Source: Chloroflexota bacterium
GTDB lineage: Bacteria; Chloroflexota; Anaerolineae; Anaerolineales; Villigracilaceae
Direction of reading: 5' to 3'
NCBI GenBank assembly: GCA_016234485.1
Contig: JACRBL010000036.1
Coordinates: forward strand, 147,799-211,798
DNA: 64,000 nucleotides
Shown: positions 3,569 through 57,664 of the stretch, piece by piece
Layout of the letters: each line of letters starts with the position of its first letter
Position numbering within the stretch: the first letter of the stretch is position 1
Program-made: the position numbers and the translations under genes
Notes under the pieces: generated by a model
Seen by the model: only the letters and a program-made list of their open reading frames with translations
Databases searched by the model: none
What the model was told of the DNA's origin: nothing

Positions 3569-3611
3569 GTCGCATAGTTTGATGGTCTGATAGTCTCATA
3601 GTCCATCCGTC
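3569..3611. repeat. 8-bp tandem array O1 (GTCNNATA)
   Basis: GTCGCATA|GTTTGATG|GTCTGATA|GTCTCATA|GTCCATCC|GTC, phase runs into palindromic repeat A. Confidence 0.88.
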
Positions 3612-3697
3612 ATTGCGAGGATGATCTTCCCGAAGCAATCTCCTCTCGCGGCGCGGGGATTGCTTCGTCGGGAAGAGCGCCCTCCTCGCAATGACGG
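3607..3697. repeat. CGTCATTGCGAG palindromic repeat, copy A
   Basis: CCGTCATTGCGAGG...GAAGCAATCTCC...GGGGATTGCTTC...CCTCGCAATGACGG. Confidence 0.92.
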
Positions 3698-3727
3698 AAT
3701 ACGCTAGAGAAGGTGAATCAAAAACCT

Positions 3728-5391: not shown

Positions 5392-5940
5392 TTATCCCAA
5401 ATTCCGCAGGATCATGGTCACGAGGCCAAGGATGCCGAGGGGAAGGAAGATGTAAAGGAAAATGAGAAACCTGTCCGCAAGGGATTCGAGGATGCGGCGG
5501 GCGAGGGGGACGCGTCCCGCGAAGTAGGCCAGCGCGCAAATCCCTGCGAGCGCCCAGGGCGTGATGTTGACCATCGCGGTTGGATAATCGGTCTTCGACT
5601 GAAATTGAAATGCGAAAAACATGACGTAGCCTAGTCCAAGCAGGACGAGGGTCGCGCCGCGGGCGACGAAGGCTTCGCCAAACCAAAGCCTGGGAAGGAT
5701 GGCTGCCAGCAAGACGATTCCAAAAATTACAGCCGCGCTTTCCAAAAAGGTGGTGGCAAAGGAATAGGCCAGAGTCACAAGTAGATCGGACACCCGCTGA
5801 AAATAGACCCACCCAGAGAGTTTCCAGGAGAAATGTCCCAGCATCCAAAAATTCAAAATGGAAAGACCCATTGCATAAACGGGCATCCATTCGCGCGTGG
5901 ACGGAAATCGGTCGCGAACCCAGACGATGAAGCGGCGCAT
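5392..5940 (-). CDS. Integral membrane protein, unknown function
   Basis: 182 aa with several hydrophobic segments; ends at the start codon of the upstream gene (translational coupling likely). Confidence 0.7.
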   Translation of the reverse strand: MRRFIVWVRDRFPSTREWMPVYAMGLSILNFWMLGHFSWKLSGWVYFQRVSDLLVTLAYSFATTFLESAAVIFGIVLLAAILPRLWFGEAFVARGATLVLLGLGYVMFFAFQFQSKTDYPTAMVNITPWALAGICALAYFAGRVPLARRILESLADRFLIFLYIFLPLGILGLVTMILRNLG

Positions 5941-7391
5941 TATCCGAGAACCTTAAGGATGAATTCCGCCGTGCGTTTGCCAGCGCTTGCATCGGTGAAT
6001 GTAATTTCATCTTCCACGAATTTGCGGCGTTCTTTTGAATCGACGGTTCGATCTTTGAGATAAAGATTCAAAGCATCGCGCAATTCGTTCTCGTCTTTGG
6101 CCACGCGTCCCGCTTGGGCGAGACGGAAGCGTTGATGCGTCGGCCAGTCGCCGATCTCTTTGAGGGAGAGGGAGAATTTCCTCGGCTTGTTCCACCCGCC
6201 GGGGACGTCGATCGTCGCGGCGATCATCGGCGTATCGTGGACGGCGGTCTCGACCAGCATCGTCGAGTAGACGGTCACCACCACGTCGGAATATGCCATC
6301 ATCGAAGACTTCTCGTCCATGTCTTCGCCGCCGTAGTAGCCGAGCGATCCGCCCAACGCCACGGGCTGGACAACGTGGACGTGGGGATATTTTTTCTCAA
6401 GCTCGAAGACGCGCTGACGTTCGTCTGCAAAGATTTTCGGCTTATCTTGAAAATGACTCGGATGCAGGCGGATCAACAACTGCGAAGGTTCCGCCAGCGC
6501 ATCAGACGAGACCAGTTTCGCCAGCGCTTCGATGTTGGGATAGTTCGGCGCAAAGTGGACGAAACTGCTGGCGTAGGAAATTAACTTCCGTTGCGGGTCG
6601 AGGCCGTGTAGTTTGAAATACTCGTCGCGCGGCATGAGCCACTGCTTGCGGAAATACCCATCGTAGGAGGGGATGCCGCCGATGTGGACGCGTTCCGGAT
6701 TCCAGTCCGAGCCGAGGACCAACTCGTCCTTTTGCAGTTGCGACCAGCACGTTGCCCACTGTACGTCCGCGCCGCTGATGTTGTACGAGGAGGAATTGTC
6801 CCAGCCGACGATGACGGTCATATTCGGGATGCCGCGTCGGGCGGACTCGCGCAGGAGATAGCGGTCCATGCGCCAACCTGGAGTCGAAGCGATGACGAGG
6901 TCGGGTTGGTATTTGTCGAAGAGGTCGGCGTAGAGATTCGGCGTGAAGCGATTTTGTGCCTTGACCAAATATTTGCGCGCCCACGAAAAATTCCGCAGGA
7001 GGAAGGTCGCGAGCGCCGCGGGAATCCAAACGCCAAGGCGGAACTTCCAGCCGTTCTCGGCCCAGACCTCCCAGATGTGGCTGTCCATGGCTTCGGTGTT
7101 GATGCGGCGCGAGCCTCCGATGCGGCGCAGGTAGGCGAGGAGCCATTGGAGGCGGGGGGAGACTTTTTTGGCGTAGTCGTTGGCTTGGGTGAGGCGGAGG
7201 CTTTCAAAGGTGATCTGATTATTGCGTATTGCGTATTGCGTAAAACGTGCGGCAAGTTTTTCGACAAGCGCGTCGTCGGTGAGGAGGATGATGTCAATGT
7301 CCGCGTTGAGAAGCGTCGGGATGACGTCGCTTTGGAGGAAGTAGATGATTGCCATGCCGTGGTCGGCGGAGATGAAGATGCGTTTGGTCAT
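5940..7391 (-). CDS. Capsule/CDP-glycerol-type glycosyltransferase-like protein
   Basis: MTKRIFISADHGMAIIYFLQSDVIPTLL; VIVGWDNSSSYN; LLIRLHPSH; DVVVTVYSTMLVETAVHDTPMIA, typical of GT-B capsule/teichoic-type enzymes. Confidence 0.7.
   Translation of the reverse strand: MTKRIFISADHGMAIIYFLQSDVIPTLLNADIDIILLTDDALVEKLAARFTQYAIRNNQITFESLRLTQANDYAKKVSPRLQWLLAYLRRIGGSRRINTEAMDSHIWEVWAENGWKFRLGVWIPAALATFLLRNFSWARKYLVKAQNRFTPNLYADLFDKYQPDLVIASTPGWRMDRYLLRESARRGIPNMTVIVGWDNSSSYNISGADVQWATCWSQLQKDELVLGSDWNPERVHIGGIPSYDGYFRKQWLMPRDEYFKLHGLDPQRKLISYASSFVHFAPNYPNIEALAKLVSSDALAEPSQLLIRLHPSHFQDKPKIFADERQRVFELEKKYPHVHVVQPVALGGSLGYYGGEDMDEKSSMMAYSDVVVTVYSTMLVETAVHDTPMIAATIDVPGGWNKPRKFSLSLKEIGDWPTHQRFRLAQAGRVAKDENELRDALNLYLKDRTVDSKERRKFVEDEITFTDASAGKRTAEFILKVLG
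7221..7248. repeat. Intragenic 7-bp array (ATTGCGT)
   Basis: ATTGCGT x3 then AAAACGT, inside the glycosyltransferase-like CDS. Confidence 0.85.
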
Positions 7392-7434
7392 TTGGTCGGG
7401 TGGTCTTGTGGTCGGGTGGTCTTGTGGTCGCTAT
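7387..7434. repeat. 8-bp tandem array O2
   Basis: GTCATTTG|GTCGGGTG|GTCTTGTG|GTCGGGTG|GTCTTGTG|GTCGCTAT. Confidence 0.93.
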
Positions 7435-7919
7435 CGCATTACACCAAAATAAAACGCCAAACCCAACGCGACGAAAATCAACAGCCAGGTTCTCGCGCTC
7501 GCAAGCAGGCGTCTCCATTCCTCTTTGTTGAAGATCAGGATTCGCAAAACGGCCTTGAAGTTGTTGACAAGGCTCGTCAACAGCAGGCTGACGACTGCAA
7601 GCGAGATGACCACGCCCCAGGCCGCGGCTGAGCGGACCATTTCCAATTGCAGGTCTATGAAAGTACGCAGAGCCGGGACGGTAAAGACGGGGATACCGAG
7701 CATCCGAACCATGTGCCCATTGCAAAACATGGGATCCAAGCCAAGTTGGTTGAGGATCAGGTAATCGCAGGTGGCATAGAATTTAAATGCCTGTGCAAGG
7801 ATCGGGGCGAAAACAAAATAGACCGCCACGGAAAGGATGACAATCATGATGAGAGGGCGATTCCACACAAAGAGAACGCCCGACCAGACCCCATTCCCCA
7901 ACCGTTTTAAATTTGACAT
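7431..7919 (-). CDS. Integral membrane protein, unknown function
   Basis: 162 aa, multiple transmembrane stretches; its TAG stop lies in an octamer repeat array. Confidence 0.65.
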   Translation of the reverse strand: MSNLKRLGNGVWSGVLFVWNRPLIMIVILSVAVYFVFAPILAQAFKFYATCDYLILNQLGLDPMFCNGHMVRMLGIPVFTVPALRTFIDLQLEMVRSAAAWGVVISLAVVSLLLTSLVNNFKAVLRILIFNKEEWRRLLASARTWLLIFVALGLAFYFGVMR

Positions 7920-20040: not shown

Positions 20041-20080
20041 AACTACCAGACTACGCGACCACTTGACTATCGGACTAAAT
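20041..20080. repeat. 8-bp tandem array O3
   Basis: AACTACCA|GACTACGC|GACCACTT|GACTATCG|GACTAAAT. Confidence 0.85.
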
Positions 20081-33426: not shown

Positions 33427-33441
33427 GGTTACTCCTATCAG

Positions 33442-41529: not shown

Positions 41530-44009
41530 CGTTCCAACAGTCTTTCGGCCTCCTCGTACGCGACTTTGTACTTGTACTCTCCGCCATCGCAGTACGCCAA
41601 CTTCAACGCCTCCTGCGCATGGAAAATCGCAGCCTCTTTATCGCTCAATTGACCTTCGACCTTCGACCTGTGACCATTCATCGCAAGTTCCGCGAGGAAC
41701 AGATTCACATCCGCCCCCTGCAACACATACCCGCTCCTCTCCGTGATCATCAGCGCCTCGGACGCTTTTTCCTGCGCGTCCTTGAAATCGCCTTGGGCGT
41801 AACGCAAGCGGGCAACATCAAGCAGGATGTCGGCTTCCGCGTCAACCGAATTGATTTGCCGACAGAGATCGAGCGCTTTGGACAGGTTTTCTTCTGCCAG
41901 AGTCAAATCGTTATTCATACGATTTGCTGCGCCAAGAAACCGATAAGCGTCAACATAGTCGCGAGGAGTTGGCGCGTCCGTTCTTGCGTCTTCATCCGCA
42001 AATTCAAGGGCGCGTTGGGCACATTCGATTGCCGATATTCGATATTCGATATTCGACTTTCGAGTATCGAGTATTGCTTCTTCCCTTGCCATGAGCAGGA
42101 AACGCAGGGCGCGATATGACCAAACATTTCCTTCTGCTTGAATTGCAGATAATTTCTTAAAGATAGGTAGCGCGTGGTCTTGCTCCTGTTCTGCGTCCTG
42201 CCATTTTCCACAATAAGATAAGATACGCGCTAACTCATGATGACCGACGGCTTCTCTGAATTCATCCGCAATCTCGAGGGACAGGTCAATGCGGCGGCGC
42301 AGGTTGCGCTCCGCGGCGCTCAACTCGCCAATGACCAGTTGCTGTTGCGCCACGTTCCCCAGGTCAATGGCGAGATTTTTCTTGTCTCCATCACTTCCAT
42401 CCAATTTCGCTGAAATCAAAAATAGCCTTACTGCATTTGCGGGTTGTCCTGAAAGAGAGTAAGAGTTAGCAAGTCCGTTTGCCGTCCAAGATTGTGAACG
42501 TTTTGTATTTACTTTGGGCGGTTTGTCTTCGCCGTCGAGAAATAAAGCGCGTAAAAGTTCAATGCGTAATTGATATGCGCCAAATTGATAATAAGTTGGC
42601 TGGTTAATTCGGTCATAAAACAACTTCAATGCCTCATCCAAATTCCCCGCTCCAACCATGTGATGATACAGTTCGATAACGGGCGCGAGATCTTCCAATG
42701 CTTTCACCCTCGTGTTCGTCACGGGCATGTTGTCGCCAAAATACTTGGCAAGTCCGACGTGCGCCTCTTTGCGCCGCTTCTCGTCAGTGAAGTGGTCATA
42801 CGCATAATGCCGCACGATCGGGTGCATATCGTAGCGTTGGTTCTCGCCCGCAAATTGCAAGAGTCCGCGCTTGCGCAGGTCGAGCAGGGCTTTATCCAGG
42901 TCGGGGCTGGGGAACACCTTTTTGAGCACGGCGTATTCCATCGAGCCGCGAAAGCAGGAAATCTTGCTCAGCAAGTCCCTGCGCTCGGTGGCTAAACTTT
43001 CATACGCGCGTTGCAAAACGTGATGTCGTCTGGCTCTCACATCCTCGAAGATTTCCAGATTCTTCACCGCCGCAATATCGCCCCGATGCGCGTGGTCTTC
43101 GTTGATCAAACCGACCAGCAGGCTCAAACTCAACGGGTGATAGCCGTACGCTGCACACACTTCGATGATCTCCGCGCGTGTGGCTTTTATGCCTTCGTTG
43201 TGGAAGTACGTCACCGCGTCCTCGGGCGAGAAGGCGGAGAGCGACTCATCGCGGCAGCCTTTGAGCAGTTTGCCGTCGGCGCTCTCCAAGGCGCGCGGAC
43301 ACAGGCGCGTGGTCATCAAGACTTTGGACTTCGTGACCGCGCCGCTCAAGCCGCGCAGGAAGGTTTCCGTCAGCGGGGAGGAGCAATCGCGCTGGGAGGG
43401 GTCAATGTCGGCATCCTCATCGTCGGATTGAAGCGCCGCATCCATCCGACCGTATTGCCTCAGCAACCGCTCGAAGCCGTCCAGCGCTATCAGGATGTTC
43501 GTCCCGCGCATGGCTTCCAGCAGATCATTGACCTGCTGCCGCGCGGACTCTTTGACCTCCACGCCGAGATGTTTCAGCGTTTCGGAAAGAAAACTCTCAA
43601 AGCCCGATTCCTTTTCGTAGAACGACCACCAGACCGCCGTCGGCCACTGAGCGCGATCCACGCGGTTGAACCACGTCCACGCCAGCGCGGATTTGCCAAA
43701 TCCGCCCAACGCGCGCAGCATCAGCAGGTTGTCTTTGTCATTGCCCAACCATTCATCGAGAATCTTGAGTTCCGTTTCTCGTCCAGTGAATGTCGCCAGA
43801 TCACCGTAGCGATGACCGTAAAACCACTTCGATGTTGAAGGTTGAACGTTGAAGGTTGCAGGTTTGGCTTCGTCAGCCGCGTGAATATTGATGACTGCGT
43901 GATCGCCAGTGACGATAACGCTCTTGTCCACGTTTCCCCCAACGGCAACTCCTCCCGCCGAAACGGACTGCGAAACTTTTGTCTCTTCAGGTTTCTTCGT
44001 CTTTGCCAT
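41517..44009 (-). CDS. STAND (NB-ARC-like) ATPase with TPR C-terminus
   Basis: FTGRETELKILDEWL, LLMLRALGGFGKSALAWTWF P-loop, ILIALDGFERLLRQYG Walker B, many TPR-like helices; N-terminal GGVAVGGNVDKSVIVTGDHAVINIH. Confidence 0.88.
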   Translation of the reverse strand: MAKTKKPEETKVSQSVSAGGVAVGGNVDKSVIVTGDHAVINIHAADEAKPATFNVQPSTSKWFYGHRYGDLATFTGRETELKILDEWLGNDKDNLLMLRALGGFGKSALAWTWFNRVDRAQWPTAVWWSFYEKESGFESFLSETLKHLGVEVKESARQQVNDLLEAMRGTNILIALDGFERLLRQYGRMDAALQSDDEDADIDPSQRDCSSPLTETFLRGLSGAVTKSKVLMTTRLCPRALESADGKLLKGCRDESLSAFSPEDAVTYFHNEGIKATRAEIIEVCAAYGYHPLSLSLLVGLINEDHAHRGDIAAVKNLEIFEDVRARRHHVLQRAYESLATERRDLLSKISCFRGSMEYAVLKKVFPSPDLDKALLDLRKRGLLQFAGENQRYDMHPIVRHYAYDHFTDEKRRKEAHVGLAKYFGDNMPVTNTRVKALEDLAPVIELYHHMVGAGNLDEALKLFYDRINQPTYYQFGAYQLRIELLRALFLDGEDKPPKVNTKRSQSWTANGLANSYSLSGQPANAVRLFLISAKLDGSDGDKKNLAIDLGNVAQQQLVIGELSAAERNLRRRIDLSLEIADEFREAVGHHELARILSYCGKWQDAEQEQDHALPIFKKLSAIQAEGNVWSYRALRFLLMAREEAILDTRKSNIEYRISAIECAQRALEFADEDARTDAPTPRDYVDAYRFLGAANRMNNDLTLAEENLSKALDLCRQINSVDAEADILLDVARLRYAQGDFKDAQEKASEALMITERSGYVLQGADVNLFLAELAMNGHRSKVEGQLSDKEAAIFHAQEALKLAYCDGGEYKYKVAYEEAERLLERLKR
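41651..41678. repeat. Intragenic 7-bp array (GACCTTC)
   Basis: GACCTTC|GACCTTC|GACCTGT|GACCATT in STAND CDS. Confidence 0.8.
42027..42075. repeat. Intragenic 7-bp array (GATATTC)
   Basis: GATTGCC|GATATTC|GATATTC|GATATTC|GACTTTC|GAGTATC|GAGTATT in STAND CDS. Confidence 0.92.
43835..43862. repeat. Intragenic 7-bp array (TTGAACG/TTGAAGG)
   Basis: TTGAAGG|TTGAACG|TTGAAGG|TTGCAGG in STAND CDS. Confidence 0.87.
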
Positions 44010-44025
44010 ACTCCACCTCCATCTC

Positions 44026-44065
44026 GACTACGCGACTATGTGACTATCTGACTATGAGACGATCA
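44026..44065. repeat. 8-bp tandem array O6
   Basis: GACTACGC|GACTATGT|GACTATCT|GACTATGA|GACGATCA. Confidence 0.9.
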
Positions 44066-57542: not shown

Positions 57543-57664
57543 TTCGTCTTCTAGTCCTTAGTCTTCTAGTCTACTGGTCAGAGAGTCGGTGAAAGTCTGT
57601 AAGTCGTGATATCGATGAGCAAGCGACTAGCAGACTAGCGGACAAGCCGACTAGCTGACATCTC
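57538..57664. repeat. 8-bp tandem array O7, inverted halves
   Basis: ACCATTTC|GTCTTCTA|GTCCTTA|GTCTTCTA|GTCTACTG|GTCAGAGA...GACTAGCA|GACTAGCG|GACAAGCC|GACTAGCT|GACATCTC; centre irregular. Confidence 0.87.

Follow-up and report, generated by a model that had tools for sequence, protein, structure and literature searches.

Why do two unrelated genes begin inside the same octamer, and what does the tandem array attached to this octamer do between coding regions? The question arises in a window of 64,000 nucleotides from a bacterium of the Anaerolineales (Chloroflexota), the whole stretch of DNA analyzed here. Two minus-strand genes are involved, an open reading frame for a 162-aa predicted membrane protein (7431-7919) and, downstream, a gene for a 483-aa protein (5940-7391) which is conserved in its family and matches PF04464, CDP-glycerol glycerophosphotransferase (E=3.5e-7). 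The 39 bp gap between them is filled by an 8-bp array with six cores (7385-7430, minus strand), and positions 7387-7434 read GTCATTTG GTCGGGTG GTCTTGTG GTCGGGTG GTCTTGTG GTCGCTAT. The TAG stop codon of the upstream gene (CTA at 7431-7433, minus strand; TAGCGACCA) is located inside the last unit. The ATG of the PF04464 gene (CAT at 7389-7391, minus strand) is located inside GTCATTTG, and the GAC of its ATGACC is in register with the array. The original prediction had described this layout, and it is exact to the base. The start at 7389-7391 is well supported because array-free orthologues, e.g., L005 and L009, also begin with ATGACCAAA. The 162-aa protein has no Pfam match, and its gene was not found adjoining the PF04464 orthologues examined.

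The octamer GTCATTTG occurs again at 36600, where it covers the start codon (36602-36604) of a pgpH-like 7TM-HD hydrolase (34499-36604, minus strand; Pfam matches PF07697, PF07698, and PF01966). Upstream lies a yqeY-like gene (PF09424; 36698-37150, minus strand), and its TAG stop shares the register of the array (TAGTTGGT TAGTCGAA). The interval between both genes is occupied by an inverted pair of arrays (36600-36692), in gene sense TRGTC+NNN followed by GACYA+NNN up to ATGAC. That one and the same unit carries the PF04464 and the pgpH starts is, within the window, correct. The original prediction had taken this coincidence as a hint that coding boundaries are where arrays are seeded or where their copying ends. 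As evidence for such a process the shared unit is weak. ATGAC encodes Met-Thr and is native coding sequence. The identity of the unit is cheap because a GAC of ATGAC in register with GACYA+NNN requires a preceding unit which ends in AT; sharing of GTCATTTG by both genes is largely forced, as a native in-register ATGAC leaves the unit with about a single base free to vary. The two arrays agree over their first 13 bases and then diverge. Other genes have GACCACAT, GACTACAT, or GACTAATG as start units in place of GTCATTTG. A special, copied seed is rejected because ATGAC is native and other in-register units exist. Further, three copies of GTCATTTG without any array are present on the opposite strand of the window (60636, 54706, 40090), thus the octamer is informative only within an array context. 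The association of the start-bearing unit with start codons, which the prediction had proposed to search for in the genome, survived: GTCATTTGGTCG is present three times in the 4.46-Mb genome, twice in C18 and once in C30, the latter in L243 where ...ccgaccaa precedes ATGACCAAAGTC, and all three copies are on predicted start codons.

TRGTC+NNN, or GACYA+NNN on the minus strand, describes the unit better: a core of five fixed bases and a variable triplet. Read as T[GA]GTC+NNN, or GACCA+NNN in gene sense, the array at 7385-7430 has the triplets ATT, GGG, TTG, GGG, and TTG between its six cores, and a 16-bp higher-order period is visible (best TRF score 78 at period 16). Chance is excluded because the three-core pattern TRGTCNNNTRGTCNNNTRGTC matches 211 times in the 4.46-Mb genome versus 0 for a reversed-pattern control, and 18 array chains were found versus 0 in each of five dinucleotide shuffles (464 kb). 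As a control for periodicity, reversed sequence is unusable since the period is preserved. When arrays were picked by lag-8 periodicity alone, disregarding the motif, columns of lower conservation grouped together in one block, to a modest extent (t=2.6). Chain searches located further members of the family in the window, a three-core array of GACYA+NNN (3583-3603, minus strand), four-core arrays between divergent genes (20049-20077, plus strand) and in a co-directional gap (44026-44054, plus strand), and an inverted pair (57552-57660) with a TRGTC arm at 57552-57579 and a GACTAGCN arm at 57625-57660. The distribution among relatives is patchy. Matches of the three-core pattern number 272 in G042 and 277 in G091, but two members of the same genus are nearly devoid of the family (0 in G003, 1 in G004). 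Matches with a taxonomic name are mostly from Anaerolineales and other Chloroflexota, with scattered occurrences in Bacteroidota, Verrucomicrobiota, Proteobacteria, and others; among viral contigs 39 stretches contain a TRGTC-type pattern.

The genome statistics rest on about 0.9 Mb of stretches, with genes predicted by a simple home-made codon-usage caller. All 47 arrays examined are in gaps, with a mean overlap with predicted genes of 2.7 bp. Lag-7 segments occur at 71 per 100 kb of intergenic versus 6.7 of coding DNA, lag-8 segments at 30 versus 1.1; at lags 10 and 13 the density is about 1 per 100 kb. Tandem repeats with units of 7-9 bp occur at numerous loci and nearly always outside genes, and separate families of period 7, 8, and 9 occupy the same kind of gap. 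The gaps are not used evenly. When 7/8-bp arrays of all families are counted, the window's genome has one in 82 of its 376 gaps between co-directional genes and in 6 of the 144 gaps between convergent or divergent genes (p=1.9e-7). The bias points the same way, but less strongly, in G002 (26/174 vs 4/72, p=0.05) and G014 (8/155 vs 0/41, p=0.21), and is absent in G057 (21/140 vs 8/69, p=0.67); among these four genomes significance is limited to that of the window. Convergent gaps are array-poor (4/70), and transcription termination as a general role is rejected on this ground.

Other repeats are present in gaps of the window as well. At 33851-33919 heptamer arms, AAACGTAAATCGTAAGAAGTAAAACGTAAAA and TTACGTTTTACGCTTTACGTTTTA, flank an ATATGG center, an inverted pair of another family in the same type of gap. 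GTTNAAC heptamers are at 33441-33469 and 41501-41525; in the former array the central base is A, G, T, and C over successive units, i.e., variation is confined to one column. One short gap (41430-41540) combines ATCAGTN heptamers, a GGACTC...GAGTCC hairpin with a T-run, and adjoining AACGTTNA heptamers. An imperfect palindrome, GTCATTGCGAGGA...TCCTCGCAATGACGG (3605-3705), is beside an octamer array; a similar element, CATTGCGAGGAG...CTCGCAATGAC, is in the PF04464 leader of the relative L013.

Orientation and register tie the arrays to codons. In gene sense, arrays ahead of starts in the window's genome are GACYA rather than TRGTC in a ratio of 16:2, and those after stops are TRGTC rather than GACYA in a ratio of 19:8. 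At independent loci of other genomes the corresponding ratios are 23:1 and 35:7. Inverted pairs have TRGTC first and GACYA second in 31 of 32 cases. Of 19 genes whose stop precedes a TRGTC array, 18 end in TAG, versus 90 of the 453 others (p=1.4e-11); at independent loci the counts are 29 of 35 versus 102 of 438 (p=2e-12). This TAG is exactly the first core in 10/19 and 16/35 cases, respectively; additional units upstream of the in-register stop are rarer (3/19 and 4/35). At starts the enrichment is modest: ATGAC is found at 6 of 15 array-abutting starts versus 54 of 396 elsewhere (p=0.013). The preceding gene has its stop in the TAG of TRGTC, and the GAC of GACYA doubles as the GAC of the following ATGAC start. 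Arrays, mostly in co-directional gaps, are often flush with coding edges, and their cores keep the register of the codons there. The general proposition of a relation between arrays and coding boundaries is supported by TAG register, ATGAC excess, and polarity, while the shared unit, from which it was originally drawn, contributes little. Arrays may grow from the boundary, or may land there by short homology and be retained. For families other than TRGTC in-register stops are weaker genome-wide; in the window's genome the stop trinucleotide is repeated at +7 in 18 genes compared to about 8 at most other offsets.

Could a viability filter alone generate this picture? Arrays would expand or insert anywhere and selection would retain those in operon gaps; gaps of a few bases would make the survivors codon-flush, and an array entering the end of a gene would bring its own TAG. 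The near-absence of arrays from coding DNA agrees with this, as do the few arrays which enter genes and end them by an in-array TAG (offsets -8 and -16) and the yqeY/pgpH gap, which in relatives has just 2 to a few bases. Yet elsewhere in the genome only about 20% of stops are TAG, and 95% TAG is unexpected for native stops. In-array stops should be distributed about equally over units 1, 2, and 3, but 10 of 13 are on the first unit. Convergent gaps should tolerate insertions and are array-poor nonetheless, and at pgk, ccmB, and yqeY the stop positions of orthologues are unchanged. The TAG excess is not predicted by the filter alone, and we consider it rather unlikely as a complete explanation.

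A different perspective emerges when orthologous junctions are compared, each species being represented by a single genome. Five genomes from four genera (G000, G006, G008, G010, G014) have octamer-type arrays at the PF04464 start, all of them keeping register with ATGAC. Their units differ among the five genomes, and these arrays may share one ancestor. Array-free leaders of the PF04464 orthologues L020 and L024 are homologous to those of L014, L017, and L025 and have a GTGTC start instead of ATGACC. In G001, the closest relative, yqeY and pgpH are about 2 bases apart; in G002 and G007 a decayed array between them starts at the TAG stop. In pgk and ccmB nearly all relatives share the aligned position of the stop, and downstream of it the family varies by species, TRGTC, GTACACAN, TAAAACG, TAAATCG, or none. 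The 3' junctions of pgk and ccmB in G005 and G006 (L253, L284, L286) are filled with units of a second family of octamers, GTAMACAN/GTACACAN. In a third gene (L232) the stop shifts by about one codon among relatives, and the arrays are TRRGCAG, TARACAGG, TRGTC, or TGACRAA. The stop trinucleotide belongs to the first unit of TAAAACG in L290, TAAATCG in L292, TRRGCAG in L317, and TGACRAA in L335. Since orthologous junctions accept different 7/8-bp families or none, a gene-specific regulatory or binding site is not favored.

These comparisons bear directly on a possible function as RNA, in which GACYA leader repeats would be the target of a translation factor or prevent structure from forming at the ribosome site, and hairpins of TRGTC with GACYA would set mRNA stability or uncouple translation. 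Strict gene-sense polarity and the preference for co-directional gaps would fit, and so would the precedent of the Beggiatoaceae, in which TAACTGA heptamers face start codons and are proposed translational regulatory sites (PMC4679880). The pgpH leader with its inverted pair (36600-36692) is predicted to fold more stably than all 200 shuffles (z=-6.6). The 7387 leader, however, is unstructured in the same type of prediction, and a search of the window against Rfam 15 gave no match at gathering score. The triplets of the two arms are complementary at 0.48 versus 0.45 by chance, and 40 of 300 shuffles are as high; this likewise rejects the notion that the arms are inverted copies of each other. 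Unrelated families, or nothing, at orthologous junctions and the near-absence of the family in members of the same genus also argue against such a role, and we assign it a low probability.

The fixed core with its variable triplet invites one more proposal. A staggered five-base cut at TRGTC could be filled in, duplicating the core, and an end-joining enzyme would add three untemplated bases per unit; precisely an invariant core of five bases next to a random triplet would result. No Ku homologue (PF02735) was found in the 94%-complete genome, and Ku-dependent end joining is rejected accordingly. In several arrays the triplets alternate in 16-bp periods, which indicates copying and not fresh random addition, and the filler length of three bases is left without a cause. 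This route appears most improbable.

The best explanation, to which we give about an even chance, regards the array as a single member of a dispersed and degenerate satellite of octamers which is anchored at the edges of coding regions and came to lie there by landing or copying via very short homology. The anchoring mechanism is inferred from outcomes. Array DNA would be copied or recombined into operon gaps by very short homology of its core to TAG stops or (AT)GAC starts, and only events leaving both flanking proteins intact would survive. Array length would then change by slippage, for which the 16-bp higher-order repeats may be a trace. A gene-specific function would be unnecessary. The constant core with a variable triplet is accounted for neither by slippage nor by short homology alone. 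As a tentative and less probable option, an array-making process may initiate 7-8 bp arrays on stop or start codons, in register, thereby creating operon spacers, with rapid turnover of families between species. Averaging lag autocorrelation around all stops diluted the signal too far to be of use.

How does this satellite compare to known systems? The STRR of heterocystous cyanobacteria are dispersed, degenerate families of heptanucleotides, mostly intergenic. The TRGTC family shares dispersal, degeneracy, and a mostly intergenic location, yet its period is 8, which sets it apart from the heptanucleotide units of the STRR and TAACTGA type; the STRR are not known to be in register with stop and start codons. 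REP/BIME elements of enterobacteria are intercistronic and form inverted pairs able to fold in mRNA; they are longer, single palindromes linked to a transposase. The TRGTC family resembles them in intercistronic location and inverted pairs and differs in being made of tandem octamers. Further, conserved complementary hairpin arms of the REP/BIME kind are not seen: the cores are complementary, the triplets are not, and many arrays are one-armed. Among described systems the TAACTGA direct repeats of marine Beggiatoaceae (MacGregor, 2015, PMC4679880) come nearest. They agree in several respects, i.e., short tandem intergenic units at many loci which point to starts, as GACYA does here (16:2 and 23:1), patchy phylogeny, and stop codons within the unit. 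The largest class of TAACTGA sets ends 1 nt before the start codon, few sets face stops (12/170), and there is one inverted repeat only (PMC4679880). In contrast to the near-constant unit of period 7 in TAACTGA (PMC4679880), the TRGTC family has period 8, a variable triplet, a two-sided polarity, and frequent inverted pairs. The heptamer satellites (GATAGRA)n of Chloroflexus aurantiacus are alike in having a Chloroflexota host and in being dispersed satellites derived from one short repeat; their unit and period differ, and in the part of that report consulted a link to codon edges is not mentioned (PMC6749651). In the open-access literature searched no description of TRGTC+NNN octamers or of a codon register was found, which is not proof of absence.

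It is an open question how short tandem repeats originate and spread through the compact genomes of bacteria. The TRGTC family, which in many genomes combines a fixed core and a variable triplet with strict polarity and codon register, provides a situation in which slippage, short-homology landing, and selection on RNA predict different outcomes. Gene callers are warned that TAG stops and ATGAC starts are frequently inside repeats. Taken together, the observations suggest that these octamer repeats propagate by attaching to the borders of genes and are not marks of two particular genes.
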